Assembly (NCBI GenBank): GCA_902609675.1
Contig: CACLST010000009.1
Coordinates: forward strand, 1-40,625
Direction of reading: 5' to 3'
DNA from: an uncultured Pelagibacteraceae bacterium
GTDB lineage: Bacteria > Pseudomonadota > Alphaproteobacteria > Pelagibacterales > Pelagibacteraceae
Length of the DNA: 40,625 nt
Position numbers and translations under genes: made by a program. Below the pieces are notes generated by a model that was given only the letters and a program-made list of their open reading frames with translations, made no database searches and had not been told where the DNA came from. Shown here piece by piece: positions 14,829 to 34,894 of this stretch; the first letter of the stretch is position 1; each line of letters begins with the position of its first letter.

Positions 14829-14832
14829 TTAA

Positions 14833-14970
14833 TTATTGGTAATAAGAAATAAACCAATATTGGCCTCTTTTATTCATAGAATAAGTCTTATTTTTTCTTC
14901 TCTTAGACTTCCTGATTTCAGGTTTTTTATAACCTATAATATTCTTTAAAGTTGATATGAACCTAATCAT
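14833..14970 (-). CDS. Possible small basic peptide (45 aa), unrecognised
   Basis: An open frame of 45 codons on the minus strand in the gap between sufA and glnA. It begins MIRFISTLKNII, has 13 Lys/Arg residues including the run RKSKRRKNK, and ends with an aromatic tail (QYWFISYYQ). I do not recognise the family. Upstream there is only TAAGGTT directly before ATG, so ribosome binding is weak. It lies downstream of glnA on the same strand, past a hairpin. It is either a real small protein of a streamlined genome or chance; only conservation could decide. Confidence 0.3.
   Translation of the reverse strand: MIRFISTLKNIIGYKKPEIRKSKRRKNKTYSMNKRGQYWFISYYQ
14834..14859 (+). repeat. Weak inverted repeat after sufA
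   Basis: TATTGGT (14834-14840) pairs with ACCAATA (14853-14859) across a 12-base loop, followed by TTGGCCTCTTTTATTC. It could be a weak end signal for the suf transcript, since it lies 6 bases after the sufA stop, but the T-run is poor. It also overlaps the possible small minus-strand ORF. Confidence 0.3.
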
Positions 14971-14996
14971 AACCTTAGTTAACAAAATTTAGTAAA

Positions 14997-15045
14997 ATTA
15001 GAATTCTAATATGGGAATACCTGCTATTACCACAGGTAATCCCAT
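14997..15045. repeat. Palindrome plus 13-bp hairpin in sufA-glnA gap
   Basis: A perfect 14-bp palindrome ATTAGAATTCTAAT (14997-15010) is followed directly by a strong hairpin: ATGGGAATACCTG (15011-15023) against CAGGTAATCCCAT (15033-15045), one A-A mismatch, 9-base loop. It lies 13 bases beyond the glnA stop on the minus strand. No clean T-run follows on either strand, so it is not a textbook terminator. It may be an mRNA 3'-end stabiliser, a bidirectional terminator or part of a small RNA. Confidence 0.6.
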
Positions 15046-15058
15046 AAAATTAAGCTTT

Positions 15059-17982: not shown

Positions 17983-18999
17983 CTAATTTATTTTTAATTG
18001 TTCAAATTTTTTTGACTTAACTGATTTTAGTGCAGCTTCTGCTAACATTATAGACTTTCTTCCATCTTCAAAAACAGCTCTAGGTTTAATATTTTTTTTG
18101 CAAAAGTTTGCAAGGTCAGACAGCTGCAACCTAAAGGCTTCTACATATCTCTCTATAAAAAAATGAAGGAGAGGGGATTTATTATTTGTCGAATTTTTAA
18201 AAAAGAGATTAGTTTCTGTGTCTCTTTTATTATCTGATATCATCATTCCTTTTGTTCCAAAAAGCTCAACTCTTTGATCATAACCAAAACTACAATGTCT
18301 TGAATTAGTTATAATGCATTGCACTCCCTTTTTCGACTTAAGCACTGTTGTTGCAAGCTCATAGTCTTTTATCTTATTAAATCTTTGGTCTGATATGTTA
18401 CTGCCAGTAGCAAATACTGATATAAATTCATCCGAACCTAAGTAGTATCTTGCCAAATCAAAATCATGTATCATCATATCTTTAAATATACCTCCAGAAC
18501 TTTTTAAATAAGACAACGAAGGAGGAGCAGGGTCCCGACTAGTTATAATAATTTTTTCTAATTTACCTATTTTATTTTTTAACAAATTTTTTTTAAGTAA
18601 ATTATGTCCAGGATCGTATCTTCTATTAAAGCCTATTTGAACTTTAGGATTAAGTTTTTTAATTTTCTTTAGAGATGAATTAATTTTTTTTAAATTTAAA
18701 TCTAGTGGTTTTTCACAAAAGACTACTTTTTTATACTTAGCACCCTTTTCAATAAATTTTAAATGCGTAGAAGTAGAAGAAGCTATAAAAATACATTTAA
18801 TTTCATTATCTTTAAAAGCAATATTTGGATTATTTAATGAAATAGCATTAAATTTTTTTGAAATTTTGTTTGATAGTTTTTTATTTAAATCAAAAACATA
18901 TTTTAATTCAAATTCACTATTTTTTCTTAAATTATTAGCATGCATCTGGCCAATTCTACCAAGGCCAAACAGAGCAGTTTTTATTTTATTTTTACCCAT
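17983..18999 (-). CDS. iolG: Inositol 2-dehydrogenase-like Gfo/Idh/MocA oxidoreductase
   Basis: About 338 residues from the preferred start. Rossmann motif ALFGLGRIGQMHANNL, the EKPLDL segment with the conserved Lys, GFNRRYDPGH, and the GGIFKDMMIHDFDLARYYLG block are all typical of myo-inositol 2-dehydrogenase (inositol to 2-keto-inositol, NAD-linked). Neighbouring IolE and IolD support this role. The start at 18999 (MGKNKIKTALFG) is chosen because the longer start at 19026 only adds a Lys-rich tail inside the upstream gene. It still overlaps that gene by 19 bases, so the two form one operon. Specificity for which inositol isomer is unknown. Confidence 0.85.
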   Translation of the reverse strand: MGKNKIKTALFGLGRIGQMHANNLRKNSEFELKYVFDLNKKLSNKISKKFNAISLNNPNIAFKDNEIKCIFIASSTSTHLKFIEKGAKYKKVVFCEKPLDLNLKKINSSLKKIKKLNPKVQIGFNRRYDPGHNLLKKNLLKNKIGKLEKIIITSRDPAPPSLSYLKSSGGIFKDMMIHDFDLARYYLGSDEFISVFATGSNISDQRFNKIKDYELATTVLKSKKGVQCIITNSRHCSFGYDQRVELFGTKGMMISDNKRDTETNLFFKNSTNNKSPLLHFFIERYVEAFRLQLSDLANFCKKNIKPRAVFEDGRKSIMLAEAALKSVKSKKFEQLKIN

Positions 19000-20126
19000 C
19001 TTTTTTTTCTGTTTGAAACTTTGCATGCATCAATAAATTTTGCAGTTTCAAGTCCCTCATCCTCATTTGGATAAAAATACCTTTTTTTTGCATTATTTTT
19101 CAAAGAAAATGCAAATTCACGATAAATATTTGCAAATGCATCCAAATATCCTTCAGGATGTCCAAATTTTAATCTAGAAAATTTTTTAGACAATTCGGCA
19201 TTAAAAAAACCTCTTTCAATAAATTTAACAGCACCATTAGATGGATTAAGTTTTAAATAGTTTGGATCGTTTTGAACCCATTCCAAACTTCCTTTTGTTC
19301 CAAATATTCTTATTCTTAATCCGTAAACACCGCCTCTAGCCATCACACTAGTCCAAAACATTCCTTTAGCACCATTATTAAAATTAATCATTACTTGAGC
19401 ATTATTGTCCATTTTAACTTTATTTGAAACTTGTTTAATATCTGCAAAAATAGTTTCACCTTTTAAACCTGATATATAAGTTGCCATATGATATGCATGG
19501 GATCCAATTTCATTCAGGACTGCTGAAGTTCCAACAATATTTTTATCTATTTTCCATTTAAACTTTCTCTTCGCATTTTTTTGAGAGATATTTTCTCCAT
19601 CTGACCAATCTTGAACATATTCAACATTTACATATTCAACTTTTCCAATTTTACCTTTTTCAACCAATACTTTTGCTTCTCTAACCATAGGATAAGCAGT
19701 ATAATTATGTGTCAAAGCATACTTAATTTTTTTGTTTGATTTTATTTTTTTAAATAATTTCTTAGCTTGAGTAAGATTTCCAGCAAACGGTTTATCAGAG
19801 ATCACATGAATATTTTTGTCAATAAATTTTTCTGCAATAATTTGGTGACTTGAAGGAGGTGTCATTATTGCCACAACATTAATACCATCTTTTCTTTCCG
19901 CTTCTCTTTCAGCCATCTCTCTAAAATTTGAATAGCATCTCTCTTTTAAAATACCTAGGGTTTGACCAAAGCTTTTAGATAGCTTTGAATTTCTCGAAAA
20001 AACACCAGCAACTATCTCATATTGATTATCAAATCTTGATGAAATTCTATGAACATGACCAATCCAAGATTTTGGACCACCTCCAACTAAGCCAAGCTGA
20101 ATTTTTTTTCCTTTAATTAATCTCAT
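18981..20126 (-). CDS. Gfo/Idh/MocA-family oxidoreductase
   Basis: About 381 residues. Rossmann region LGLVGGGPKSWIGHVHRISS, the SDKPFAGNL segment (Lys of the EKP-type motif), and the GTSAVLNEIGSHAYHMATYISG block define the family. The GGGxxxxIGxVHR variety is often found beside IolE-like isomerases. A likely role is oxidising or reducing a second inositol isomer or a keto-inositol; that is inference. Start set at 20126 because the longer start at 20207 runs back through the divergent iolE. No clear ribosome-binding site precedes it. Confidence 0.85.
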   Translation of the reverse strand: MRLIKGKKIQLGLVGGGPKSWIGHVHRISSRFDNQYEIVAGVFSRNSKLSKSFGQTLGILKERCYSNFREMAEREAERKDGINVVAIMTPPSSHQIIAEKFIDKNIHVISDKPFAGNLTQAKKLFKKIKSNKKIKYALTHNYTAYPMVREAKVLVEKGKIGKVEYVNVEYVQDWSDGENISQKNAKRKFKWKIDKNIVGTSAVLNEIGSHAYHMATYISGLKGETIFADIKQVSNKVKMDNNAQVMINFNNGAKGMFWTSVMARGGVYGLRIRIFGTKGSLEWVQNDPNYLKLNPSNGAVKFIERGFFNAELSKKFSRLKFGHPEGYLDAFANIYREFAFSLKNNAKKRYFYPNEDEGLETAKFIDACKVSNRKKRWVKIK

Positions 20127-20157
20127 GATTAAATATATCTTAACAAATAAAAAATTT

Positions 20158-21060
20158 ATGTCAGTAAAATTAGGTATAGCACCAATTGCATGGAGTAATG
20201 ATGACATGCCCGAGCTAGGCGGAGATACTCCTCTAGAGCAATGTTTGTCAGAAGCAAGTCAGGCTGGATTTGTTGGTATTGAATCAGGTGGTAAATTCCC
20301 AAAAACATCTGAAGAACTATTACCAAAATTAGATAAGTATAACTTAAAATTATGTTCTGGTTGGTATAGCGGGAATCTTAGAAAAAATTCTGTTAAACAA
20401 GAAAAAAATTTAATTCAAGACCAACTGAAATTATTTAAAGATTGTGAAGCTCCATGTATCGTTTTTGCTGAAGTTTTTGGTTCAATACAAGGCGATCCAA
20501 CAGTAAAACTTTCAAGAAGGCCGAAGATGACGGACCAAGAATGGAAAGATTATTGCAAAAAAATTTCTGAACTTGCAAAGTATCTTGAAGATGAAGGTAT
20601 GCCTTTAGCTTACCACCATCATATGGGTACAGTAATAGAAACAGAAGAAGAAACTATTAGATTATTAGAAAATACAGATGATAGTGTAAAATTAACCTTA
20701 GATACCGGGCATATGTTATTTGCTCAGGGAAATTCAATTAATTTAATTAATAAATTTAAGGAAAGAGTAATCCATATTCACTGCAAAGATATTAGAGAAG
20801 AAGTATTAAAAAAGGCTATTTCTGAAGATTTGAGTTTTAGGGACGCTTTTTTAGAAGGTGCATTTACCGTGCCTGGCGATGGATGCATCGACTATAAACC
20901 TCTGTTTGATATTTTAAAAAAAAATAATTATCAGGGTTGGCTTGTTGTAGAAGCTGAACAAGATCCTAAAAAAGCTAATCCACTTGAATATGCTATTAAG
21001 GGTTACAAATATATTACTGATACTTTAAAGAAATCAAATTTAGAGATTAATAATTTATAA
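20158..21060 (+). CDS. iolE: 2-keto-myo-inositol dehydratase IolE
   Basis: About 300-residue TIM-barrel enzyme that dehydrates 2-keto-myo-inositol to 3D-(3,5/4)-trihydroxycyclohexane-1,2-dione. Strong recall match to Bacillus IolE: GIAPIAWSNDDMPELG at the start, AYHHHMGTVIETEEE, TLDTGHMLFAQG, HIHCKDIR and FTVPGDGCIDY, then VVEAEQDPKKANPLEYA. Metal ligands (Glu/Asp/His/Glu of the AP-endonuclease-like barrel) appear intact. Start at 20158 chosen because homology begins at MSVKLGIAPI; the ATG at 20125 would overlap the divergent Gfo/Idh start. Its 3' end overlaps the convergent dehydrogenase gene by 6 bases. Confidence 0.95.
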   Translation: MSVKLGIAPIAWSNDDMPELGGDTPLEQCLSEASQAGFVGIESGGKFPKTSEELLPKLDKYNLKLCSGWYSGNLRKNSVKQEKNLIQDQLKLFKDCEAPCIVFAEVFGSIQGDPTVKLSRRPKMTDQEWKDYCKKISELAKYLEDEGMPLAYHHHMGTVIETEEETIRLLENTDDSVKLTLDTGHMLFAQGNSINLINKFKERVIHIHCKDIREEVLKKAISEDLSFRDAFLEGAFTVPGDGCIDYKPLFDILKKNNYQGWLVVEAEQDPKKANPLEYAIKGYKYITDTLKKSNLEINNL

Positions 21061-22027: not shown

Positions 22028-23017
22028 TTATACTAGTCTAGCAAGATCTCTTTTACTATTTCTAAATGTTGGAAGTGGATATTTAAATGCATACTTTCTT
22101 GGAATACATTTATTCTTTGCTTTTTCCCATAAAGCAATCCATTGCTTATAGTTGTGGATCGTAATATTTTTTTTATTTTTACTTCTTACATAAAAATTGG
22201 GCAAAGGTTTCCTGCCAGATGGGGTTCCAGCTCTATTGTATCTTAAATCAGCGCTAATTCTAAAATCATTAGATCTATTAGGCAATGAGCAGTGAATGGA
22301 GTGTTTGTGCAAAATAATAATATCACCAACATTAGCCTCTAGAAAAACTGGCTTGTAATTATCAAGTATTTCACTATCTTTTATTTCAACTTGACCCCTA
22401 TATCCCGATATATGATTCAATAATCCCAATTTATTAATTTTTTTTACTGTAATCATACATCCATTTTTTTTAGTAGTTTTAGTAAATGGAATCCAAACAG
22501 TTACCATATCAGTTAATCTTTGTCCCAAAGATGATAATACCGCTGCATCCTGATGCCATGGTGTTCTACCTGAGAGGCCATCGTGAACGGAATGTTTAGG
22601 TAATTTATTTTCGGGTTGTTTAATTCTTGTATTTTGAACTGGATTTGAAAGTATTTCTGGACCTAATAATTTTTCAACCACATCCAAGATTTTTTTGTGA
22701 TTTATTAAATTCCATAAAGATTGAGATGCAAAATAATCACTATCTTTCTTCACGTGATCTCTTGGAAGTCTAGTATTAAAATATTGATCAAGATCATAAA
22801 TTTTTAATTTTGAAATGTATGTGTATTTTTTTCTAAAGTTATATTTAAAAATTTTTTCTTTCATGTGCTCAGGAGCAAATTTATGAACTAAATTGTCCAT
22901 TACATATTCCATGTCATTTAAAATTGGTTTTAAATCTTTATTGAAGTTAAGAACATTTCTTACTCTTAAGAAGCCATCTCTATCTAAAATACTCTTTAAT
23001 TTAGTCTTAATTTGCAT
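22028..23017 (-). CDS. Phytanoyl-CoA dioxygenase-family 2OG-Fe(II) oxygenase
   Basis: 329-residue PhyH-fold oxygenase. Iron ligands are visible as H155-x-D157 in TPWHQD and H242 in SIHCSLPNRS; the 2-oxoglutarate-binding Arg follows in RISADLRY. The N-terminal domain is Lys-rich. Family members hydroxylate a C-H bond using O2 and 2-oxoglutarate; PhyH enzymes in bacteria act on many small metabolites, not only acyl-CoAs. The substrate here is unknown. Sits 5 bases after a second 2OG oxygenase in the same operon. Confidence 0.9.
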   Translation of the reverse strand: MQIKTKLKSILDRDGFLRVRNVLNFNKDLKPILNDMEYVMDNLVHKFAPEHMKEKIFKYNFRKKYTYISKLKIYDLDQYFNTRLPRDHVKKDSDYFASQSLWNLINHKKILDVVEKLLGPEILSNPVQNTRIKQPENKLPKHSVHDGLSGRTPWHQDAAVLSSLGQRLTDMVTVWIPFTKTTKKNGCMITVKKINKLGLLNHISGYRGQVEIKDSEILDNYKPVFLEANVGDIIILHKHSIHCSLPNRSNDFRISADLRYNRAGTPSGRKPLPNFYVRSKNKKNITIHNYKQWIALWEKAKNKCIPRKYAFKYPLPTFRNSKRDLARLV

Positions 23018-23022
23018 AATTA

Positions 23023-23883
23023 CTAATATTTTAGCAAATAATTTGAATCATGAAAAGATGTAAGCATTCTTTTTTTCGTCGCAACAATATGTGGATGATA
23101 TTCAAAATTTTTATATTTCCATATCACTGGTTTGTTGAGAGCATAACTTCCATAAATAAAATATCTTTTTGGACAGTTTTTTTCCTTAAATCTATTTACT
23201 CCGTGATAAGAATTAGGAGTAGATTTAAAGAAAATTACACTTCCCCGTTTTGGTGTAAATTCCTTTAATTTATCAAGTTCATTAATCTTAGGAAACCTTC
23301 TAAAGTTTTTTCTAAGGTTTTTGTTTGTTTTTTTCTTATATAATGTAAGAGATCCTCCATTTTTTTTTGGTATATCGGTTAAATAGATCAAAAAATTATA
23401 GAGCCTATTCACATCATCTCTATGTGGTCTCAATCTATATCCTCCTTGAGATACTGAGAAATCAATATCTAAATTTAAATTTGGGTTTTTATAATTTTTA
23501 CCTAGTAGTTTTTTTAGCTCTTTGGAATTTACTTTTCTTTTTAGTGTATATTTTTTTTTATTAAATTTTTTTGGTTTAAACAAACTTTCCCATGTATTTG
23601 CCTTAAACTCTGTTTTAAATTTCTTATCAATTTTCTTATAAAACGATTGTGTATTGAAAGTAGTAAAAAGTTTTTTTGAAATTTTAGAACTTGAGATATA
23701 TTTGTTGAAATTATTTGATCCTTTATTAATCCTACTTCTGCCACCCATAATCATATCATCAAAACTTTTTGAGTGAGTTATTTCTTTAATTAAAGAATTG
23801 CAGACTTTTTTACTGATTATTTTTTCTCCAACAATGACTGGGAAGTTTGACTTAATTTTCTTTAGTTTACTAATTTTCAGCAT
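23023..23883 (-). CDS. 2OG-Fe(II) oxygenase superfamily protein
   Basis: 286-residue, very basic protein. The double-stranded beta-helix core is clear: H154-x-D156 in RLRPHRDD, H227 in NSYHGV, and R240 in CPKRYFIYGSY as the likely 2-oxoglutarate anchor. N-terminal ~100 residues are unassigned. Distinct from the neighbouring PhyH protein, so two different oxygenation steps, or subunits, may be encoded. Its ATG abuts the stop of the ApbA-like gene with no spacer, so they are co-transcribed. Confidence 0.85.
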   Translation of the reverse strand: MLKISKLKKIKSNFPVIVGEKIISKKVCNSLIKEITHSKSFDDMIMGGRSRINKGSNNFNKYISSSKISKKLFTTFNTQSFYKKIDKKFKTEFKANTWESLFKPKKFNKKKYTLKRKVNSKELKKLLGKNYKNPNLNLDIDFSVSQGGYRLRPHRDDVNRLYNFLIYLTDIPKKNGGSLTLYKKKTNKNLRKNFRRFPKINELDKLKEFTPKRGSVIFFKSTPNSYHGVNRFKEKNCPKRYFIYGSYALNKPVIWKYKNFEYHPHIVATKKRMLTSFHDSNYLLKY

Positions 23884-24828
23884 TTAGCTGTACATGCCCT
23901 CTTTTACTTTAATCATTTTGTACATAAGGTCATTTAATGGTGTAGCTATTCCATGTTTTTTTCCTATTTTAGATACGGCGCCACTTATGAAATCAATTTC
24001 AGTTTTTCTTTTATAAAGCACATCAAAAGCCATTGAAGACTTGTTTGTTTGTTTTGAGTCAACAATTTTATTAAACATAAATAAACACTCATCTTCAGAA
24101 ACATTAACACCATCTGCTAAAGCAACGTCTCTTGTTTCTAATATTATCTTTTTTCCTAAACTTCTAGAAACGTCGTTGGCATTATTATTTATGTAAAGAT
24201 CTGTATGATGTAAATCAAAAATAGCAGAAAGTGGGCCTATTGCGGTTAAAGCAAAAAGTTTCATCCATTTTCTTTTTTTTACATCTTCAGCTGCAATCAT
24301 TTCTAAATTATGAGCAGTAAAGGTGTCTGCAATTTCGGTTATTCTATCTGAAATCCCACCATCATATTCTCCAATCCAAGAGGGTAGAGCAGCATGATTC
24401 ATAATATGACCAGGGCCTAAGATATTTGATGCTTGAGTTGTTGTTCCCCCGATTACTTTTTCATCGCCAACAATACTTTTGATTATTGCTTCATGTCCAA
24501 TTCCATTTTGAAAAGACATAAAAACTGTTTTATCGTTTATAATGTTTTTAATACTTTTTAAAGCAGGTTCTAGAGCTGTTGCTTTACACATCACTATCAC
24601 AGAATCAACTTTTCCAATTGTAGATGGATCTGATGTTGCTGGTACTTTTATAAATCTATCACCACCATGACCATCCATCTTTAGACCATTTTTATTTATT
24701 TCATCAACATGCTCTTTCCAAACGTCAATGAGCGTTACATTTAGACCTTTTTCTGCTAGTAGGCCTCCAAATAGACAACCCATTGCCCCTGCACCAAGAA
24801 CTGCAACTTTTAAATCTTTATTATTCAT
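23884..24828 (-). CDS. ApbA/PanE-like 2-keto acid reductase, atypical active site
   Basis: 314-residue NAD(P)-dependent reductase of the ketopantoate reductase family. Rossmann GAGAMGCLFGGLLAEKG is intact, as is the catalytic lysine K190 in RKWMKLFALTAIGPL and the C-terminal SSMAFDVLYKRKTEID block. Compared from memory with E. coli PanE, the two substrate-binding Asn four and eight residues after that Lys are Leu194 and Gly198. This suggests a substrate other than ketopantoate. First gene of a minus-strand operon with two oxygenases and a dehydrogenase, divergent from the DUF1907/PanB-like pair. Confidence 0.85.
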   Translation of the reverse strand: MNNKDLKVAVLGAGAMGCLFGGLLAEKGLNVTLIDVWKEHVDEINKNGLKMDGHGGDRFIKVPATSDPSTIGKVDSVIVMCKATALEPALKSIKNIINDKTVFMSFQNGIGHEAIIKSIVGDEKVIGGTTTQASNILGPGHIMNHAALPSWIGEYDGGISDRITEIADTFTAHNLEMIAAEDVKKRKWMKLFALTAIGPLSAIFDLHHTDLYINNNANDVSRSLGKKIILETRDVALADGVNVSEDECLFMFNKIVDSKQTNKSSMAFDVLYKRKTEIDFISGAVSKIGKKHGIATPLNDLMYKMIKVKEGMYS

Positions 24829-24847
24829 TTTTAAAATCGAAATATAT

Positions 24848-24880
24848 TTATGTAAAAAAATTATGCAATATATTATGTAA
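24848..24880. repeat. Three direct TTATG(T/C)AA repeats between divergent operons
   Basis: TTATGTAA at 24848-24855, TTATGCAA at 24861-24868 and TTATGTAA at 24873-24880, at 13- and 12-base spacing. They fill most of the 63-base gap between the divergent ApbA-like and DUF1907 starts. Position suggests a shared operator; the regulator is unknown. In AT-rich DNA chance is possible, but the repeated G is less expected. Confidence 0.45.
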
Positions 24881-24891
24881 CTAATTTATAT

Positions 24892-25860
24892 ATGGAATTA
24901 AAAATAGAAAAAGGAATTTTCAAAAAATTTAAGTTAGAAGAAATATCAAACGCATTAGAAAAAGGTCTGTCAAAGAATTATGACATTGTAAAAGCAGAAG
25001 TAATTGATTGTCCAAATTTAAGAAACTGGGATTGTCCGTCTGAAGGCATGAGTGGTAACCAAAGGATAATCGATGTTGGAGGAGAGCCTTACATGCATGA
25101 TCCTAAATATCTTGGAACTGAATTTGATTATTCAGAAATCTCTAAAATGATTGGATCAGAAAGATCGTACGCACTTGGCGCAGGATCTGGAGCAATGTCT
25201 TGCCTGGATGGACACTGTGGAGAATTGGTTATAAATGAAAACTTTATTACAAAAGAAAATAAATCTTTAATTGCTAGGGTAGGAAAAGATAAAGAATGTA
25301 TAGTAGAGGATTATGCTGCAAGCAAACATGGTGGGCTAGGTAATGTTTATTATTCAGATGGTGTTAAGGGAAAAGTTATATATTTAAAGATAAAAAAAAG
25401 AATTGGAAAACAAGGTTCATTACCTCAATCAATAAGAACAGTTCTTTCAGAAAATCTTAAAATTGGGAATAAAGATCATATTGCTCTTGCTGGCATATTT
25501 AGAGTTTTGAATGGAAAAATAAGATCACATGTACAACCAGATTATAAAGATATAAAACATGAATATTATGACCCACAATTGATGAAATGCACAAAAGATT
25601 TTCTACAATTTTATGAGCCTGTTGGACCAAAATTACAATGCTATACTGTTTTATGGACTGGTGATCCAACAGGGGGAGAATTAAATTTAAGAGAGTCTGG
25701 CGAACATACTCACTTTCACTCATATGAGCATAAGAATGATGCTGGACATTATCATTTTGACGTATCTCCAGATGAAATTGAATATGAAGGATATTTTAAT
25801 ATTGCACAAGAAGTACATAGAGTGAATAATATCTATAAAGAATTAAAAAATATAAAATGA
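24892..25860 (+). CDS. DUF1907 (C11orf54/PTD012-type) zinc protein
   Basis: 322-residue protein whose whole length resembles human C11orf54, a zinc protein with ester hydrolase activity in vitro. Shared segments: VIDCPNLRNW near the N-terminus, RIIDVGGEPY, LGAGSGAM, and a C-terminal HTHFHS...GHYHFD block. The presumed zinc ligands H272, H274 and H288 are present. Physiological function of the family is not settled. The stop overlaps the PanB-like start by 4 bases, tying the two together. An enzyme on a lactone or keto-sugar acid is my inference. Confidence 0.85.
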   Translation: MELKIEKGIFKKFKLEEISNALEKGLSKNYDIVKAEVIDCPNLRNWDCPSEGMSGNQRIIDVGGEPYMHDPKYLGTEFDYSEISKMIGSERSYALGAGSGAMSCLDGHCGELVINENFITKENKSLIARVGKDKECIVEDYAASKHGGLGNVYYSDGVKGKVIYLKIKKRIGKQGSLPQSIRTVLSENLKIGNKDHIALAGIFRVLNGKIRSHVQPDYKDIKHEYYDPQLMKCTKDFLQFYEPVGPKLQCYTVLWTGDPTGGELNLRESGEHTHFHSYEHKNDAGHYHFDVSPDEIEYEGYFNIAQEVHRVNNIYKELKNIK

Positions 25861-26672
25861 AAAAGATTTATACTTGGGCTGCTCAACCTGCTAACAGAAC
25901 TCTTACAGTTGATGATCTTAGAAAAGCAAAAGGAAAAAAAAAATTTACTCAAGTCACAGCTAATACAATAGATGAAGCTGAGGCCGCAGAGAAGGCTGGG
26001 TTTGACATGATAATCTGCAATGCTTTTAATGTGAAACAGGTTAGAGAGGGATCAAAAAATCTATTTTTAACTGCTGCGCTAGTATTAAATAAGTTTGTCA
26101 CTTCGGAAGATATCATGAGAGGAGCGTTTGAAGCCCTAGAAAATGGAGCTGATGCTGTAATGACACCTAGAAGTATGAAGATCATAGAAATACTGGCTAA
26201 TGAGGATGTTCCAGTTATGGGACATCTTGGTTTAGTTCCAAGAAAATCTACGTGGATTGGTGGTTTAAGAGCAGTAGGAAAAAATAGTGAAGAGGCACAT
26301 GAACTTTTTTTAAAATTTAAAAGATTAGAGGATGCAGGAGCTTTTTCTGCCGAATGTGAGGTTATCCCAGAAAATGTAATGGGAGAAATCTCTAAAAGAA
26401 CAAATATAGTTACAGTATCTTTAGGTTCAGGAAAGAAAGCAGACGTAATGTATCTGTTCATGGAAGATATATGTGGAGATACTTTAAATCCTCCAAGACA
26501 TTCAAAAGCTTATGGAAATTTATTAAAATTAAAAAATGAAATAAAAGTTGAGAGAGTTCGAGCTCTTAAAGCATTCAAAAAAGATTCAATGGCAGGAAAA
26601 TTTCCAGGAAAAAAACAATCTTCAAATTTAAATAAAAAAGAGTTCGAGTCTTTTCTTGATAAGCTTGATTAA
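25857..26672 (+). CDS. PanB-like TIM-barrel protein, divergent active site
   Basis: 271 residues, family of ketopantoate hydroxymethyltransferase within the PEP mutase/isocitrate lyase superfamily. Clear PanB landmarks: VMGHLGLVP near residues 120-127, GGLRAVGK, and the catalytic Glu (E168) in ECEVIPENV. Yet the metal-binding GDSLGM segment is CNAFNV (54-59), the second metal Asp (DMPF in true PanB) has no counterpart in LTAALVL, and the K-x-E motif is replaced by VMTPRS (101-106). It likely does other C-C bond chemistry. Co-translated with DUF1907; convergent 4-base overlap with the aldolase gene. Confidence 0.82.
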   Translation: MKKIYTWAAQPANRTLTVDDLRKAKGKKKFTQVTANTIDEAEAAEKAGFDMIICNAFNVKQVREGSKNLFLTAALVLNKFVTSEDIMRGAFEALENGADAVMTPRSMKIIEILANEDVPVMGHLGLVPRKSTWIGGLRAVGKNSEEAHELFLKFKRLEDAGAFSAECEVIPENVMGEISKRTNIVTVSLGSGKKADVMYLFMEDICGDTLNPPRHSKAYGNLLKLKNEIKVERVRALKAFKKDSMAGKFPGKKQSSNLNKKEFESFLDKLD

Positions 26673-27460
26673 TAAGTTTCAGATTCTTTTTTGCTTATTG
26701 AGCCTTTCATTTTTTCAACTATTGCTTTAGCACCTGCACTCATCGCTCTTTGATCTGCACCAATAGTTACAAAGTTAAATCCTTTTTCGATCATTTTTTG
26801 TGCGTACTCTGGTGTTCCATTATGAATTCCTGCACATATATTATTTTTTTTGGCATGCTCTAATATTCTTAATATTTCTGAATAAGCTTTTGTATCTTCT
26901 GCTCTGTCAAACCCAGGCTTTTCTCCTATTGCTAAACTTAAGTCAGCTGGACCAATATATATTCCATCTACGCCATCTGTAGACATAATTTCATCTAATT
27001 TATCTAATGACTCTTTTGTTTCAATCATAGCTAATTTTAAAATTTCATCATTTGCATGGTCGGCATAATCAGCTCCACCATAAATCAATCCTCGAACAGG
27101 ACCAAAACTTCTATATCCTCTTGGAGGATACATACAAGCTTGAACAAATCTTTCCGCCTCTTCTTTGTTACTTACCATTGGACATATAATTCCATAACAA
27201 CCAGCGTCTAAAATTTTCATTATTTGGCCTGGTTCATTCCAATTTACTCTAGCAAGAGGAGTTACATCAGTTGATGAAATTGTTTGAAGCATTGGAAGTG
27301 CATTTGTGTAATCAACAAGTCCATGTTGCATATCTACAGTTAGAGAGTCCCAACCTTGATGCGCCATAACTTCTGCTGATACAGTACTTGGTATTTGTAA
27401 CCATCCATTTACAACAGGCTTACCATCAGCCATCATTTGTTTGACTTTATTTTTTCTCAT
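26669..27460 (-). CDS. HpcH/HpaI-family class II aldolase
   Basis: 263-residue metal-dependent aldolase of the 2,4-dihydroxyhept-2-enedioate / 2-keto-3-deoxy-sugar-acid aldolase family, which cleaves 4-hydroxy-2-keto acids to pyruvate plus an aldehyde. Seen: SAEVMAHQGWDSLTVDMQHG, RVNWNEPG, YPPRGYRSFGPVRG, MIETKES (metal Glu) and IYIGPADLSLAIG (metal Asp). Start codon overlaps the upstream aldehyde dehydrogenase stop by one base, so cleavage and oxidation of the released aldehyde are probably coupled. Related enzymes include RhmA and HpaI; substrate undecided. Confidence 0.92.
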   Translation of the reverse strand: MRKNKVKQMMADGKPVVNGWLQIPSTVSAEVMAHQGWDSLTVDMQHGLVDYTNALPMLQTISSTDVTPLARVNWNEPGQIMKILDAGCYGIICPMVSNKEEAERFVQACMYPPRGYRSFGPVRGLIYGGADYADHANDEILKLAMIETKESLDKLDEIMSTDGVDGIYIGPADLSLAIGEKPGFDRAEDTKAYSEILRILEHAKKNNICAGIHNGTPEYAQKMIEKGFNFVTIGADQRAMSAGAKAIVEKMKGSISKKESETY

Positions 27461-28902
27461 TAATAATTGAGACCGAAGTGAGTATACTTAACGTTCAAAT
27501 AATCTTTGATAGCCATTGAACCACCTTCTCTTCCATAGCCTGTTTGTTTTATTCCTCCAAAAGGCACTTCAGCGAAAGCAATTGTTGGATGGTTTACAGC
27601 ACATGTTCCAGTTTCCATTTTTTCTGAGACTTTGTGCGCTTTTTCTAAAGAATTTGTATAGATATAACTTGCTAAACCAAGGTCATTGTCATTTGCTCTT
27701 TTCACAACTTCATCCGTGTCTTTAAAAGTAAGCAATGGAACTAAAGGTCCAAATGGCTCTTCTTTAGCAATTGTAAAATTATCTTTAACATTATCAAAAA
27801 TAGTTGGTTCATAAAAATACCCTTTGTTAAAACCAGCAGGCCTTTTTCCACCACATAAAACAGTCGCTCCTTCATTTTTAGTTTTTTCTACTAATGCCTC
27901 TATTTCATTTAATCTTTTTTCTGTTGTTAAAGGCCCTAGAATTGTATCTTCATCCATTCCGTTACCAACTTTAAGCTTGGTGACTTTTTCAACTAAAGTT
28001 TTAGCAAATTCATCTTTTTTACTTTCATGAATATAAAACCTTGCAGGTGATATACAAACTTGACCATTATTTCTAAATTTAGCAGTGATTGCCATGTCAG
28101 TTACTTTGTTAATATCTACATCGTCAAAAACAATAAAAGGTGAATGACCACTTAACTCCATGGTAACTCTTTGAACTTTTTCAGCAGCTTGTTTTAAAAT
28201 TAGTTTTCCAACTCTTGTTGAGCCAGTTATAGAAACCTTTTTTACTATGTCAGATGATATTAATTGAGATGAGATTTTAGCTGGATCACCAGATAATAAA
28301 TTTACTACTCCTGGAGGAACACCCGCATCATTTATAATATTCATAAGCTCCATTACACTACCTGGAGTAATCACATCAGGCTTACAAATTACTGAACATC
28401 CTGCAGCTAAAGCAGTGGAAATTTTTCTTGAAGATAAAACTATTGGAAAATTCCAGGGTATTAATCCAGCAACAACTCCAACAGGTTCATATTTTACATA
28501 CATTCTTGTATGTTCAAATCTACTTTCAACTATCTGACCATAAATTCTTTTAGTTTCTTCAGAGTTCCATTCAAAAATATCTGCAGCGCCTCCAACTTCC
28601 CCTTTTGCTTCTGATAGTGGCTTTCCAACTTCTAATGTTAACCACTTAGCCAAAACATCAGTTCTCTCTCTCATAAGGTCGGCAATTTTTCTTATAATTT
28701 TTGATCTTTGCCAAGGTGGAGTATTTCTCCAAACTTCAAGACCTTTTTCTGCAGACTTAAGTGCTTTGTTTACATCTTCTTCACCTGCTTTAGATGCCTT
28801 ACCTAAAACTTCTTCTGTTGCAGGATTTAAAACATCATAAGTTTCATTATTTTGTGACGCTTGCCATTTGCCATCAATGAATTGTCCAAATTTGCTATAC
28901 AT
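27460..28902 (-). CDS. NAD(P)-dependent aldehyde dehydrogenase (SSADH-like)
   Basis: 480-residue ALDH. Cofactor and catalytic motifs: IPWNFPIVLSSRKISTALAAG, Gly-rich SITGSTRVGK, general base Glu in MELSGHSPF, nucleophile Cys in NNGQVCISPARF. FGGIKQTGYGREGG near the C-terminus is typical of succinate-semialdehyde and related dehydrogenases. It does not look like the CoA-dependent methylmalonate-semialdehyde enzyme IolA. Upstream partner of the HpcH/HpaI aldolase; divergent from iolD across 55 bases. Confidence 0.94.
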   Translation of the reverse strand: MYSKFGQFIDGKWQASQNNETYDVLNPATEEVLGKASKAGEEDVNKALKSAEKGLEVWRNTPPWQRSKIIRKIADLMRERTDVLAKWLTLEVGKPLSEAKGEVGGAADIFEWNSEETKRIYGQIVESRFEHTRMYVKYEPVGVVAGLIPWNFPIVLSSRKISTALAAGCSVICKPDVITPGSVMELMNIINDAGVPPGVVNLLSGDPAKISSQLISSDIVKKVSITGSTRVGKLILKQAAEKVQRVTMELSGHSPFIVFDDVDINKVTDMAITAKFRNNGQVCISPARFYIHESKKDEFAKTLVEKVTKLKVGNGMDEDTILGPLTTEKRLNEIEALVEKTKNEGATVLCGGKRPAGFNKGYFYEPTIFDNVKDNFTIAKEEPFGPLVPLLTFKDTDEVVKRANDNDLGLASYIYTNSLEKAHKVSEKMETGTCAVNHPTIAFAEVPFGGIKQTGYGREGGSMAIKDYLNVKYTHFGLNY

Positions 28903-28957: not shown

Positions 28958-30802
28958 ATGAAAAAAATAAAGCTTACTTGCGCACATGCCCTAGTTAAAC
29001 ACTTAATTGCACAGAAAATCTATATAGATGGTAAAGTTGAACCTTTATTCCCAGGAGCTTTTGGTATTTTTGGACATGGAAATGTAGCATGTATTGGGCA
29101 AGCTTTAGAGGAAAATAAAGATAAACTTCCAACATTTAGAGGTCATCATGAGCAAAATATGGCTTTAACAGGTGTTGCTTATGCAAGAGCTAAAAGAAGA
29201 AAGCAAATTTTTATTGCAACAAGTTCGGTTGGACCAGGATCTACAAATCTAGTTACAGCATCAGCTGTAGCAATGAGTAATAGATTGCCAATTTTATTTT
29301 TACCTGGAGACACTTACGCAAATAGAATGCCAGATCCAGTTTTACAACAGGTTGAACATTTTTCAAATCCAGGAATGACAGCTAACGACTCATTTAAACC
29401 AGTTACAAAATATTTTGATAGAATTACAAGACCAGAACAAATATTACAGTCACTTCCTCAAGCAATTCAAACCATGTTAGATCCAGCAGAGTGTGGACCT
29501 GCATGTTTATCTTTGTGCCAAGATGTGCAAGGTGAAACTTTTGATTATCCTGAAGAATTTTTTAAAGAAAGAATTCATAACATTAGAAGACCTAGACCTG
29601 ACGATTTTCAAATTAAAAAAGCAGTAGAAAAAATTAAAAATTCGAAAAAACCTATTATAATTTCTGGAGGTGGAGTATTTTATTCTGATGCCATGGATGA
29701 GTTAGGCAATTTTGCAACTAAACATAATATACCAGTAACCCAAACAGTTATGGGATACTCAACAATGAAAAAAGATCATTCTCATTTTGTAGGACCAATA
29801 GGAGGACTTGGAGGAAAGGCTGCAAATAATTTAGCTAAAGAAACTGATTTAGCAATTTGTATTGGTACAAAATTAGCTGACTTTACAACTGGATCATGGG
29901 CGAATTTTGAAAATCCTCAATTTAAACTAGTTTCAATTAATATTGCTAGACACGATGCAAATAAACATTTAGCAGAGGCAGTTATTGGAGATGCAAAAGT
30001 ATCATTAATAGAATTATCAAATGCACTTGGAGATTGGAGATCATCTGATAATTGGCATAAAAAATCACAAGATGAGCTTAAGTCTTGGAATGAATATGTA
30101 GATAAAGAGAGTGGCCCAACTAATCAAGATTTACCAAGTTATGCTCACGCTGTTGGAGCAATTTATAGGAATTCAGATCCAACTGATATAGCTGTTACAG
30201 CAGCAGGAGGTTTGGTCGGAGAAGTTGTTCAAGTTTGGCGGCCAAAAGAATTAAATACCCATGAAACAGAGTGGGGATTTAGTTGCATGAGTTATGAAAT
30301 TTCCGGTGCCCTTGGAATTAAAATGGCAAACCCAGATAAAGATGTCATTGCATTTGTAGGAGATGGTTCATATTTGTTAAACAATTCTGACATATATTCT
30401 TCAGTATTAACGAAAAACAAATTAATAATTATCGTGTGTGATAATGGAGGTCATGCTGTTATAAATAGACTTCAATTGTTCAAGGGTGGAAAAGAATTTA
30501 ATTGTTTATTTAATTCATCAAATGTTCAAGATTTAAAAGAAGTTAATTTTGCTCAACATGCTGCAAGTATGGGAGCAAAATCAGAACATGTTTCTAGTAT
30601 TTCAGAATTAGAAGAGGCATTTAAAAGAGCTAAGCAGTCAGATATCACTTATGTCATTTCAATCAAAACACATAGTTATGAATGGCTTGAGGGATCTGCT
30701 TATTGGGAAAGTCCTACGCTTGAAATACCAACATCAAAAGAAAATGAAGAAGCATTAAAACTCCATAAAGAAGGAAAATCAAAACAGAGACAAGGTGTTT
30801 AA
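28958..30802 (+). CDS. iolD: Trihydroxycyclohexanedione hydrolase IolD (ThDP enzyme)
   Basis: 614-residue thiamin-diphosphate enzyme that hydrolyses the ring of 3D-(3,5/4)-trihydroxycyclohexane-1,2-dione to 5-deoxy-glucuronate. N-terminal ThDP domain with FGHGNVACIGQALEE and RGHHEQNMALTGVAYA, central domain around KPIIISGGGVFYSD, C-terminal ThDP-binding FVGDGSYLLNNSDI. The insertion pattern and RGHHEQNM motif are IolD-like rather than acetolactate synthase. A GAGGAG lies 15 bases before the ATG, rather far for a ribosome site; no in-frame ATG/GTG/TTG is nearer. First gene of a long plus-strand run to the sugar importer. Confidence 0.93.
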   Translation: MKKIKLTCAHALVKHLIAQKIYIDGKVEPLFPGAFGIFGHGNVACIGQALEENKDKLPTFRGHHEQNMALTGVAYARAKRRKQIFIATSSVGPGSTNLVTASAVAMSNRLPILFLPGDTYANRMPDPVLQQVEHFSNPGMTANDSFKPVTKYFDRITRPEQILQSLPQAIQTMLDPAECGPACLSLCQDVQGETFDYPEEFFKERIHNIRRPRPDDFQIKKAVEKIKNSKKPIIISGGGVFYSDAMDELGNFATKHNIPVTQTVMGYSTMKKDHSHFVGPIGGLGGKAANNLAKETDLAICIGTKLADFTTGSWANFENPQFKLVSINIARHDANKHLAEAVIGDAKVSLIELSNALGDWRSSDNWHKKSQDELKSWNEYVDKESGPTNQDLPSYAHAVGAIYRNSDPTDIAVTAAGGLVGEVVQVWRPKELNTHETEWGFSCMSYEISGALGIKMANPDKDVIAFVGDGSYLLNNSDIYSSVLTKNKLIIIVCDNGGHAVINRLQLFKGGKEFNCLFNSSNVQDLKEVNFAQHAASMGAKSEHVSSISELEEAFKRAKQSDITYVISIKTHSYEWLEGSAYWESPTLEIPTSKENEEALKLHKEGKSKQRQGV

Positions 30803-30811: not shown

Positions 30812-31972
30812 ATGAATAAGGTTTTTAAAATTGGTTTAATAGGTTGTGGACATATCGCTGAAACATATTTTAGAGCTGAAAAATATTTCAATAATATTAA
30901 AATTGTTAAATGTGCAGATATAAATGTGAAAGCTGCAAAACGTTGTGCATTAAACTATGGAATAAAATTTTTAACTGTAAATGAACTGCTAAAAGATAAA
31001 GAGGTTGAAATTATTTTAAACCTTACAATTCCAAAAGCGCATTATTCAATATCTAAAAAAGCTTTAACAAATGGAAAACATGTATACTCTGAAAAGCCAT
31101 TAGCAATAAATTTAAAAGATGGAAAAGATTTAATAAAATTTTCAAAGAAAAACAAATTATATTTAGGTAATGCTCCTGATACATTTTTGGGTGGTGGAAT
31201 TCAAAAATCAAAAGAACTAGTTGAAAAGAACATAATTGGAAAAATTAAATTAGGCAATGCAGTTTTTGCTTTTCCTGGAATTGAGTCTTATCATCCTAAC
31301 CCTGAACCGTGGTTTGCAAAAAATGAGGGAGGTCCTGTTATTGATATGGGACCGTATTATATTACCGCTTTAGTAAATCTGTTAGGACCTGCAAAAAAAG
31401 TAACTAGCACCATCATTCAAGGTCAAAAATATAGAACTATTGGTATAGGACCTAAAAAAGGAAAAAAATTTAAGGTAGAATGTCCAACTACTTATTTATC
31501 TACAATCAATTTTAAAAATAACTCCGTTATAAGATTAACATTATCATTTGATGTAATAGCTCATCAAAGAAATCACATTGAATTATATGGAGAAAAGGGC
31601 TCAATGATTGTTCCTGACCCAAATATGTTTGGTGGATCAGTGTTAACTTGTAATAAATTAGGGGAAAATTGGAAAGAATTTAAGACTACAAAAATGTCAT
31701 TGGGACGTATTAATATAAGAACACAAAGTTCTAGAGCTAACGAAGCACCAACTAATGCAAACTATCGAGGAGCTGGATTATCTGAAATGGCATATTCAAT
31801 TGAGAATAAAAGAAAACATTTATGTAATGGTGAGATATCTTTACATGTATTAGAAATTATTACTTCTATTATGAAAGCAGCTAAATTTGGAACATCTGTG
31901 TCAATTAATTCTAACTGTGTAAAACCAAAAAAGTTTTTAGAAAAAGATGCAAAAAAATTACTAAATAAATAG
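30812..31972 (+). CDS. Gfo/Idh/MocA-family oxidoreductase
   Basis: 386 residues, third member of the family in the window. Rossmann GLIGCGHIAETYFRA, SEKPLAINLKDG with the conserved Lys, NAPDTFLGGGIQKS, and EGGPVIDMGPYYITALVNLLG. The NAPDTFLGG variant differs from IolG, so a sugar or keto-polyol substrate is likely but unspecified. Starts 9 bases after iolD and is followed after 3 bases by a hydroxyacid dehydrogenase. Confidence 0.9.
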   Translation: MNKVFKIGLIGCGHIAETYFRAEKYFNNIKIVKCADINVKAAKRCALNYGIKFLTVNELLKDKEVEIILNLTIPKAHYSISKKALTNGKHVYSEKPLAINLKDGKDLIKFSKKNKLYLGNAPDTFLGGGIQKSKELVEKNIIGKIKLGNAVFAFPGIESYHPNPEPWFAKNEGGPVIDMGPYYITALVNLLGPAKKVTSTIIQGQKYRTIGIGPKKGKKFKVECPTTYLSTINFKNNSVIRLTLSFDVIAHQRNHIELYGEKGSMIVPDPNMFGGSVLTCNKLGENWKEFKTTKMSLGRINIRTQSSRANEAPTNANYRGAGLSEMAYSIENKRKHLCNGEISLHVLEIITSIMKAAKFGTSVSINSNCVKPKKFLEKDAKKLLNK

Positions 31973-31975: not shown

Positions 31976-32998
31976 GTGAAGAAACATATAGTTATTTCTG
32001 ATCCATATCCAAGAAGATTAGATTTAATCTTTTCAAAAAAAAAACTTAAGGAATTAAAATCAAAATATAAATTAATAACTGCTCCTAAGTTAAATAAAAA
32101 AGTTTTTTATGAAAAAAATATTCATAAAGCTACTTTTATAATGGGTCAGCCAGATCTTGATAAAAATCTTTTATCAAAAGCTTCTAAGTTGAAATGTATT
32201 ATAAATGTCGAAAGTAATTTTATGGATAATATTGACTATGATTTTTGCTTTAAAAAAAAAATTGATGTCATCGCTACATCACCTGTTTTTTCAAAGCCTG
32301 TTGCTGAAATAGCCTTAGGTATGACTTTGTCTATATTAAGAAATATACATAATGCTCATTTTGATTTTGTAAAAGGTAAAGAAAAATATGGTTTAAAGAG
32401 TAATTTGAATGCTTCCCTTTTGGCAAATAAAAAAATTGGTTTACTTGGTTTTGGAGATTTAGCTAAGGCGCTTTATCCATTGCTGCTACCATTTACAAAA
32501 AATATAAATGTTTATGACCCCTGGGTCCCAAATAAAATAATAAAAAAAGCAGGTTTTAAGTCTATTAATTTAAATAAAATGTTTAGTGATTGTGAGATTA
32601 TTTATGTTCTAGCAACTGTCACAACTAAAAACAAAAATTTAATAAGCAAAAAATTATTAAATAAAATGAAGCCTAAATCAGTTTTTGTTTTAATGAGTAG
32701 AGCAGCAATCGTTAATTTTGTGGACCTAAAAAAAAGAATTAAAAAGGGAGATATATATGTCGCAACAGATGTATTTCCTGAAGAACCTGTAAAAAAAAAT
32801 GATCCAATTAGAAAGCTTAAAAATATATTGTTTTCAGCTCATAGAGCCGGAGCTTTAGAACAGGCTTTTTTTGAAATGGGTGATATTGTTCTAAAAGATA
32901 TGAACTTAATTTTAAAAAAAATGCCTCCAAAATTCTGCAAAAGGGCTCAAAGAAAAACGGTAAATCTGTTAGCCTCAAAACCTGTTGCAATTAACTGA
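31976..32998 (+). CDS. Divergent D-isomer 2-hydroxyacid dehydrogenase
   Basis: 340 residues, GTG start. Rossmann LLGFGDLAKALYPLLLPF, dinucleotide Asp in VYDPW, catalytic-type Arg in VLMSRAAIVNF, Glu in DVFPEEPVKK, His in LFSAHRAGALEQ. Much more diverged and Lys-rich than the one at 21055-22011. Likely a reductase/dehydrogenase for a 2-hydroxy acid in the same pathway; not identified further. Ends 22 bases before the ABC ATPase start. Confidence 0.82.
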   Translation: MKKHIVISDPYPRRLDLIFSKKKLKELKSKYKLITAPKLNKKVFYEKNIHKATFIMGQPDLDKNLLSKASKLKCIINVESNFMDNIDYDFCFKKKIDVIATSPVFSKPVAEIALGMTLSILRNIHNAHFDFVKGKEKYGLKSNLNASLLANKKIGLLGFGDLAKALYPLLLPFTKNINVYDPWVPNKIIKKAGFKSINLNKMFSDCEIIYVLATVTTKNKNLISKKLLNKMKPKSVFVLMSRAAIVNFVDLKKRIKKGDIYVATDVFPEEPVKKNDPIRKLKNILFSAHRAGALEQAFFEMGDIVLKDMNLILKKMPPKFCKRAQRKTVNLLASKPVAIN

Positions 32999-33020
32999 TT
33001 TTTTTATATTTTCTTCACTT

Positions 33021-33770
33021 ATGTCATCAATTAATCAATTACTTCTAGAAGCAAAAAGTGTAACAAAATACTTTGGAACAATAACAGCTCTCGAGAATGT
33101 AAATTTAAAGATACATGCAGGAGAATGTCTAGGTGTTGTGGGCGATAATGGAGCTGGAAAATCAACTCTAATGAAGGTTTTATCAGGGCTATACAAACCA
33201 AGTGCAGGCTCATTATTCTTTGATGGTAAAGAGAAGATTTTAGAAAGTCCAAAAGATTCTCAAAATTTAGGTCTTGAAATGGTTTATCAAGACTTGGCAT
33301 TAGCTGGAAATCTTCCTATAGGTGAAAATATTTTTTTAGGGCGTGAACCAACTAAAAATCTTGGACTACTTAAATTTCTAGATTATAAAAAAATTAAAGA
33401 ACTTACTGATGCGCATCTTGGTAAATTAAAAATTAATGTCAAAAGCGCTGATCAAAAAGTAGAAGAACTTTCAGGTGGTCAAAGGCAAGCAGTTGCAATT
33501 GCAAGATCAACAGCATTTAATGCTAAAGTTGTAATAATGGATGAACCAACTGCTGCACTTGCAATTAAAGAAGTTGGTAAAGTTCTAGATCTTATAAATA
33601 GTTTAAAACAAACAGGTGTTGGAGTAATAGTTATCAGTCATAGAATGGATGATATTTTTGCCGTGTGTGATCGTGTGATGGCCTTATTCCAAGGAACAAA
33701 TTTTGCAGAGTCTGAATTATCTAAAACTTCAAGAGATGAAGTAATAGGTTGGATTATGGGTAAAAAATAA
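33021..33770 (+). CDS. Sugar ABC transporter ATPase (FrcA-like, single domain)
   Basis: 249 residues from the ATG at 33021. Walker A GDNGAGKST, signature LSGGQRQAVAIARS, Walker B VVIMDEPTAAL, H-loop VISHRMD. Members of the CUT2 class such as RbsA have two such domains; here there is one, as in fructose-type FrcA systems. A TTG 36 bases upstream is in frame but lies inside the previous gene and is less likely. Followed after 2 bases by the permease. Confidence 0.95.
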   Translation: MSSINQLLLEAKSVTKYFGTITALENVNLKIHAGECLGVVGDNGAGKSTLMKVLSGLYKPSAGSLFFDGKEKILESPKDSQNLGLEMVYQDLALAGNLPIGENIFLGREPTKNLGLLKFLDYKKIKELTDAHLGKLKINVKSADQKVEELSGGQRQAVAIARSTAFNAKVVIMDEPTAALAIKEVGKVLDLINSLKQTGVGVIVISHRMDDIFAVCDRVMALFQGTNFAESELSKTSRDEVIGWIMGKK

Positions 33771-33772
33771 TT

Positions 33773-34786: not shown

Positions 34787-34867
34787 CACACCTAATAGTT
34801 GTAATTGTAAATTTGATTGTCTTTTATAAACAGTTGAATTTTTTTTAAAAATTTTATTAAATTAATT

Positions 34868-34883
34868 TTTAATAATTATTAAA
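34868..34883. repeat. 16-bp perfect palindrome before binding-protein gene
   Basis: TTTAATAATTATTAAA is a perfect palindrome whose last bases touch the AGGGG ribosome-binding site (34883-34887). Could be an operator or a weak hairpin near the start. All-AT palindromes occur by chance in such DNA, so weight is low. Confidence 0.35.
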
Positions 34884-34894
34884 GGGGTAAAAAT

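Follow-up and report, generated by a model that had tools for sequence, protein, structure and literature searches.

Why should a marine bacterium carry two genes with pantothenate names around a gene for a DUF1907 protein, and do these genes serve pantothenate synthesis at all? The locus that raises this question lies on contig CACLST010000009.1 (assembly GCA_902609675.1) of an uncultured Pelagibacteraceae bacterium, whose positions 1 to 40,625 we analyzed as one stretch (hereafter, the window). It comprises a gene for an ApbA/PanE-type dehydrogenase with an altered pair of substrate asparagines (23884..24828, minus strand; ApbA and ApbA_C Pfam domains) and, on the plus strand, genes for a DUF1907/C11orf54-family protein, a predicted beta-oxo-acid decarboxylase (24892..25860; PF08925, 193.5 bits), and for a PanB-like protein of the TIM-barrel family without the PanB metal site, here called PanBL (25857..26672; Pantoate_transf, 122.9 bits, cut-off 28.7). 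An earlier note on this DNA had described the three open reading frames (ORFs), their divergent arrangement and a 4-base overlap of the DUF1907 and PanBL genes (25857-25860), all of which we find in the window. PanBL belongs to a separate family in which the metal and substrate residues of PanB are essentially absent, and it very probably stands outside the pantothenate pathway.

In PanB, Asp45, Ser46, Asp84, Lys112 and Glu114 (E. coli numbering) are metal ligands or, in the case of the lysine and the serine, substrate residues. When 51 PanBL and 13 PanB proteins were aligned, these positions were occupied as expected in 13, 13, 12, 13 and 12 of the 13 PanB sequences, versus 3 (in a gapped stretch), 0, 1, 0 and 0 of the 51 PanBL sequences, and a FastTree tree of the same 64 proteins split the two groups with a support of 0.999. 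As the pattern of losses is common to the 51 PanBL, the losses that the earlier note had claimed for the window protein are not due to chance. The loss of the GDSLGM motif, of the DMPF aspartate (Ala in the window) and of the K-x-E motif (Met-x-Pro) was correctly recognized there, as was the retention of GHLGLVP and of the glutamate in ECEVIP. However, the reading of CNAFNV as the changed form of GDSLGM does not hold, since about 20 residues around the motif are absent; what stands in that place varies among orthologues (SNAKNI in locus L095, GSASNV in L118).

PanBL and E. coli PanB (1m3u) are thus of the same sequence family and share GHLGL..P and the catalytic Glu181 (His136 and Glu181 are kept in 51/51 PanBL), yet PanBL lacks the roughly 20 residues that hold GDSLGM, has Asp84, Lys112 and Glu114 replaced and has gained Glu166, His215 and Arg233 (window numbering). 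The gained residues are found in 51/51 PanBL, at sites where PanB has Val (12/13), Phe (13/13) and a gap (13/13), respectively. Across 25 diverse PanBL, 20 residues are invariant, charged ones new to the family among them. A profile of these 25 sequences matched, among solved structures (E 0.01), five PanB and one designed barrel and nothing else, and on two NCBIfam PanB models the window protein scored 107.6 bits against a cut-off of 272 and 96 against 207.55 (the curated equivalog). The viral collection was searched with the DUF1907 protein, E. coli PanB and three PanBL proteins, and no relatives were found. An antisense ORF of 170 residues inside the PanBL gene (25949-26461, minus strand) was treated as spurious.

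The window's genome, which belongs to SAR11 (Pelagibacteraceae) and is 71% complete, contains a second PanB on another contig (C11; 306 bits) with all motifs intact, as well as one more protein of the ApbA type (C17), in which both substrate asparagines are retained. Besides, a relative of PanBL has been studied in Rhizobium etli CFN42. According to a 2011 paper (PMC3082293), the strain carries a second putative PanB, RHE_PE00443, on plasmid p42e; of the 12 invariable residues of the active site this protein has 5, and a metal domain was not detected in it. The panB mutant of the strain is reported to be auxotrophic despite RHE_PE00443, and a clone expressing the latter failed to rescue the mutant, a result stated as 'data not shown'. 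In the p42e stretch examined, the protein annotated as PanB is RHE_RS26335, which we equate with RHE_PE00443 on the basis of plasmid and annotation; it is 38% identical to the window's PanBL over 260 residues and displays the same losses and gains. Hence, the non-PanB status of one member of the PanBL family is already in print, and the failed rescue, the opposite of the outcome by which the earlier note would have been refuted, agrees with the proposal of that note that PanBL has left the pathway. The p42e gene is preceded by genes for a flavin adenine dinucleotide (FAD) reductase, a MocE ferredoxin and a MocD-type desaturase. This locus resembles the window in the kind of residues lost and gained and in its oxygenase-type neighbor, but it differs in that the oxygenase is of the MocD type and in that DUF1907 is not annotated in the 22 kb examined. 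With a canonical PanB elsewhere in the genome and the metal residues lost from PanBL, the pantothenate gene names are misleading, as had been claimed. The broader idea of two repurposed proteins stands very probably for PanBL and stands as well for the loss of the substrate asparagines in the reductase; what it missed was the wider PanBL family.

The ApbA-type protein scores 235.6 bits on TIGR00745, the PanE family model, and thereby exceeds the cut-off of 141.35. Like E. coli PanE (KPR), it keeps Lys176, Asn98, Ser244 and Glu256, which are also kept in its SAR11 orthologues. Unlike PanE, it has Leu in place of Asn180 and Gly in place of Asn184 (+4 and +8 from Lys176), just as the earlier note had seen, and the same exchange is found in 84/84 distinct SAR11 orthologues (86 aligned rows minus the two with both asparagines, namely E. 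coli PanE and, by residue 194, the C17 protein). Its second-best solved relative, 3wfi, is what we take to be an NAD (nicotinamide adenine dinucleotide)-dependent D-mandelate dehydrogenase, and the aspartate of its LIDVW motif, presumably typical of NAD-dependent relatives, would suit NAD. Of the exchanged positions, Asn184 is placed on the carboxylate group of the substrate in a published E. coli PanE model (PMC10127515).

For the DUF1907 protein, a role as zinc hydrolase or isomerase had been put forward, which is not supported: human C11orf54 is reported to be a 3-dehydro-L-gulonate decarboxylase with an acetolactate-decarboxylase-like fold and a zinc held by three histidines (PMC12435205). 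The one solved relative of the window protein is this very protein (1xcr; E 9.1e-36), matched nearly end to end, and H272, H274, H286 and H288 are invariant in 101 SAR11 DUF1907 sequences. While the window protein shares the DUF1907 domain and the HTH and HYH motifs with C11orf54/PTD012, it differs from the latter in being bacterial and in belonging to a gene module with oxygenases. By analogy, decarboxylation of a beta-oxo acid is its most plausible function. The family is described as well conserved in eukaryotes and present in some bacteria, with rotifer fusions of DUF1907 to a dehydrogenase (PMC12435205). We detected it in 105 of 397 Pelagibacteraceae genomes; beyond the window's own genome, it was found neither in the class sample (1/385) nor in the phylum sample (1/388), and there was no match on plasmids. 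It is possible that the Pelagibacteraceae acquired DUF1907 from a eukaryote.

Behind the ApbA gene follow two minus-strand oxygenase genes (22028-23883) that the earlier note, right about the three genes, had omitted from the set: a 2-oxoglutarate (2OG)-Fe(II) oxygenase gene abutting that of ApbA (23023..23883; PF13640, 44.4 bits) and a PhyH-type Fe(II)/2OG oxygenase gene (22028..23017; PF05721, 65.5 bits). How constant this arrangement is was assessed in 80 fetched PanBL loci, all named Pelagibacteraceae or Candidatus Pelagibacter, with a gene counted as present if a match of >60% identity over half its length occurred anywhere in the locus, adjacency not being required. PhyH, 2OG-Fe, ApbA and DUF1907 were each present in all 65 loci whose sequence extends 9 kb or more upstream of PanBL. 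ApbA, DUF1907 and PanBL, for which the earlier note had proposed a neighborhood search, thus recur together in SAR11. The 4-base overlap is, on the other hand, no general feature, since 30 of the 65 loci have a gene for a 138-residue protein, which in L095 (9588-10004) lies between DUF1907 and PanBL. This L095 protein has no Pfam match at E 0.001 and looks like a small winged-helix regulator.

Downstream, four further genes were each present in 61/61 loci with at least 6.5 kb of sequence on that side. In the window, these encode an HpcH/HpaI-type aldolase, the downstream partner of PanBL in Pelagibacter (26669..27460, minus; PF03328), an aldehyde dehydrogenase (27460..28902, minus; PF00171, 555 bits), the trihydroxycyclohexane-1,2-dione hydrolase IolD (28958..30802, plus; TIGR04377, 793.9 bits, cut-off 715) and a Gfo/Idh/MocA-type oxidoreductase (30812..31972, plus; PF01408). 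More variable neighbors are an IolE-type inosose dehydratase (20125..21060, plus; TIGR04379, 413.3 bits, cut-off 290; in 45/65 loci) and an IolG-like dehydrogenase (17983..19026, minus; TIGR04380, 346.1 bits, slightly under the cut-off of 355; in 42/65), both at >60% identity. Farther out lies a ribose-type ATP-binding cassette (ABC) transporter (32985..35827, plus) made up of ATPase, permease and binding protein, whose top models PRK10762, PRK09512 and PRK09701 all score under cut-off; the binding protein also matches the rhizopine-binding model NF052284 (69.9 bits, cut-off 420).

Within SAR11, all five core genes are found side by side in two dissimilar settings. In genus g279 (e.g. L115, L118 and L122), they are accompanied by branched-chain-type ABC and EamA-like transporters, a hydratase-like protein and a short-chain dehydrogenase/reductase; IolD, HpcH and the aldehyde dehydrogenase had no match in the g279 stretches fetched, nor did HpcH in g277. 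Two g277 loci (L128, L129) and one of g279 (L130) continue, at a greater distance, into genes that by eye encode a crotonase, an acyl-CoA synthetase, a citE-like protein and a member of the enolase superfamily. For two more PanBL types, of 68% and 40% identity, the distance to a PhyH-type gene is at most 100 bases, and such a gene is found within 3 kb of PanBL in 5/5 SAR11 contexts. A protein resembling 2-keto-4-pentenoate hydratase, below the family cut-offs, recurs near DUF1907 or PanBL (L118:7764-8543, L129:14384-15154, L198:3023-3796).

Among the 397 Pelagibacteraceae genomes, DUF1907 and PanBL co-occur in 84, PanBL is present alone in 5, DUF1907 alone in 21 and neither in 287, as counted from hand-copied lists of related genomes with PanBL defined by E < about 1e-90 and one genome at 40% identity (G550) left out; given this relatedness, the Fisher value for the co-occurrence is no clean probability. 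Of the five genomes with PanBL alone, four (G479, G498, G531, G598) have the gene no more than 400 bases from the end of a contig. For the DUF1907-only genomes, 17 of the 21 were fetched, and in 12 of these (L139-L144, L146-L150, L154) the gene that usually comes after PanBL directly follows DUF1907, with or without the 138-residue gene. In L139, for instance, about 20 bases separate the aligned end of DUF1907 from that of HpcH; PhyH, ApbA and DUF1907 are kept there and PanBL is cleanly lost. The 2OG-Fe gene varies independently of PanBL: it is present without PanBL in L142, L147, L149 and L150, and it was not found in five compared g277 stretches with PanBL (L116, L120, L127, L128, L129). The steadier core is PhyH, ApbA and DUF1907. 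A few loci are unusual in other ways. L036 has DUF1907, ApbA, 2OG-Fe and PhyH repeated in inverted order after the ABC gene (13600-16438), probably a chimera of single-cell assembly. L124 and L125 carry two divergent PanBL copies near genes that, by eye, resemble those of taurine catabolism (sulfoacetaldehyde acetyltransferase Xsc, taurine-pyruvate aminotransferase Tpa, alanine dehydrogenase Ald and a TauA-like protein), perhaps owing to a shared insertion site.

Outside SAR11, PanBL was detected in 21 of the 385 alphaproteobacterial genomes of the class sample at E 1e-35 or better, a count that includes the window's own genome. On plasmids, 264 records matched at E 1e-40 or better. Within 3 kb of the plasmid-borne genes, we found MocD plus a Rieske ferredoxin in 9 and a sterol-desaturase-type gene in 6 of 15 records, hence an oxygenase-type neighbor in 15/15. 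As the oxygenase queries were drawn from SAR11 and plasmid loci, the class sample represents the sole independent test. Here, a PhyH, MocD or Rieske-type gene lay within 3 kb of PanBL in 10/20 loci, with 16 oxygenase-type ORFs in 112 kb near PanBL versus 1 in 200 kb farther away (p 8.6e-7), a comparison that was made within PanBL loci, without true PanB loci among them, that includes loci of the same genus (L207/L210/L211; L202/L203/L204; L208/L212) and that counts the ORFs of one operon singly. Gene calling was crude in GC-rich contigs. A Rieske-type neighbor in L204 came from a laxer pass with drifting profiles and was gone in the stricter pass that was counted. Because the oxygenase families linked to PanBL are mutually unrelated, PanBL would seem to serve something common to all of them.

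Some of these neighbors point towards rhizopine catabolism, in which MocDEF demethylates 3-O-methyl-scyllo-inosamine. The copies in R. etli CIAT 652 are named mocD, mocEa and mocFa, and in Marivivens and Aestuarium genes for an inositol dehydrogenase and a 5-dehydro-2-deoxygluconokinase lie downstream of PanBL. Rhizopine mocDEF clusters thus resemble PanBL loci in that mocD/mocE stand beside PanBL in the 9 plasmid records mentioned, with inositol genes near some; the window differs from them in having 2OG-Fe oxygenases in the stead of MocDEF, plus ApbA and DUF1907. No ORF of the MocD, sterol-desaturase or Rieske-ferredoxin type was found in the whole 40.6 kb window, which consequently lacks the MocDEF part of rhizopine catabolism. 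Elsewhere, in L212, a PurU-like gene (12815-13642; identity to E. coli PurU 38.6%) stands 3 kb away from PanBL, in a cluster with IolG-, IolD- and MocE-type genes. In L196, a tandem PanBL pair (9232-10922 and 11019-12559) stands beside a tandem pair of the PhyH type, and the respective genome (G161) has four PanBL matches. A Mesorhizobium plasmid bears a 105-residue PanC-like stretch, apparently a remnant, 4.9 kb from PanBL (L159:6779-7093; 53% to E. coli PanC).

From the gene content, gene order, residues and recurrence observed, we infer the substrate and all reaction steps of what we tentatively take, at somewhat less than an even chance, to be a SAR11 oxygenase-initiated catabolic module encoded by the five genes at 22028-26672, which would degrade a small substituted polyol or hydroxy acid and use PanBL on a one-carbon or aldol product. 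The PhyH and 2OG-Fe enzymes would hydroxylate the substrate, probably at a methyl group, and release formaldehyde; the ApbA-type enzyme would oxidize a hydroxy acid; and the DUF1907 protein would decarboxylate the beta-oxo acid so made. PanBL, no longer a ketopantoate hydroxymethyltransferase, would act on the one-carbon or aldol product that the oxygenases yield, using a re-made active site, for which His123, Glu166, Glu168, His215 and Arg233 are candidates, the magnesium site of PanB being unused. For the oxygenases, demethylation is a first guess, made by comparison with MocDEF, whose substrate is an O-methyl inositol amine; as a guess at the substrate we would name an O-methylated cyclitol or sugar acid. 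That PanBL can be lost cleanly while PhyH, ApbA and DUF1907 are retained, as in L139, fits an accessory step for this protein. More specifically, PanBL might be a folate-linked formaldehyde-activating enzyme that has kept the formaldehyde-folate half of the PanB reaction and dropped the 2-oxo-acid half, so that in SAR11 and rhizobia alike it would capture formaldehyde freed by demethylating oxygenases; we consider this distinctly improbable as yet. In its favor, the reaction of PanB itself involves transfer of a formaldehyde unit onto and off folate, and one locus, L212, has the PurU gene mentioned above. Further, two papers state that SAR11 oxidizes methyl groups via folate, that slow formaldehyde oxidation in strain HTCC1062 is likely due to the lack of a formaldehyde-activating enzyme (PMC3160333), and that the uncatalyzed reaction of formaldehyde with folate is unlikely to be an effective route (PMC7073904).

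Several observations weigh against the module as proposed, or against a one-carbon role of PanBL within it. PanBL is missing from 21 of the 105 genomes with DUF1907, and in L151 neither PhyH nor ApbA accompanies DUF1907 over the 14 kb fetched. The transporters differ between settings (ribose-type in the window, branched-chain-type in others), so that a single common substrate is not established. In the class sample, the other 10 of 20 loci have no such oxygenase gene within 3 kb, among them L194, which holds the closest PanBL relative outside SAR11 (61% identity); in two loci, L195 and L213, a contig end is close to PanBL, and a Pfam search of ten ORFs around oxygenase-free PanBL loci revealed no common theme. 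FolD, GcvT, FrmA and FrmB were not found near PanBL in any of 41 loci, and the folate and formaldehyde genes sought appeared in just one of the 41 (PurU, in L212). Finally, an AlphaFold model of PanBL built from 19 near-identical sequences (predicted local distance difference test score 38.4, predicted template modeling score 0.29) is unusable.

How else might the locus be explained? PanBL could be an aldolase, retro-aldolase or lyase that acts on the hydroxylated carbon skeleton as a main-line step, with neither free formaldehyde nor folate involved. Carbanion chemistry may well remain, given that His136 and Glu181 of PanB are kept in all 51 PanBL; an aldolase and an aldehyde dehydrogenase stand beside PanBL in 61/61 Pelagibacter loci, and in other genera a hydratase-like gene, below family cut-offs, adjoins DUF1907. 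A main-line step sits poorly, though, with the dispensability of PanBL while the rest of the module persists, and partner oxygenases from unrelated families fit a common by-product better than one skeleton, wherefore we regard this alternative as possible but on balance unlikely. If instead the dehydrogenase and decarboxylase are taken as the heart of the locus, it would resemble the human sugar-acid route of CRYL1 and C11orf54, i.e. dehydrogenation at C3 followed by decarboxylation to a ketose, with the oxygenases and PanBL merely feeding it. The DUF1907 match to 1xcr with its kept histidine motifs, the persistence of both genes together in most loci and the rotifer fusions (PMC12435205) all speak for such a route. 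Yet ApbA represents a different dehydrogenase family, whose known members use 2-oxo or 2-hydroxy acids, and PhyH is about as constant as ApbA; we deem this explanation unlikely.

Two simpler accounts fare worse. That these are genuine pantothenate genes which diverged fast would agree with the database names and Pfam families, but the canonical PanB elsewhere in the genome, the lost metal residues of PanBL, its patchy presence in SAR11 and the reported absence of panB rescue by the R. etli relative (PMC3082293) make it scarcely credible. PanBL as a decaying pseudo-enzyme would explain its loss from some strains and the internal TGA in one strong match (G603); however, no internal stop occurs in the other strong SAR11 matches listed, and 20 residues, new charged ones included, are invariant in 25 diverse PanBL, which renders decay very improbable. 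We thus retain, with the reservations given, the oxygenase-initiated module as our working proposal.

In summary, the present analysis identifies PanBL as a family that is often oxygenase-adjacent and, wherever a listed match bears a name, annotated as pantothenate synthesis, by which predictions of vitamin need are misled. Our literature searches (PanB with Pelagibacter, formaldehyde or demethylation, mocDEF, rhizopine) returned no paper on the PanBL family or its neighbors. For C11orf54-type decarboxylation, a bacterial setting would be gained. SAR11 are among the most abundant marine cells, and their demethylation and one-carbon oxidation are a studied carbon route, for which PanBL may now serve as a testable candidate for the formaldehyde-activating step.

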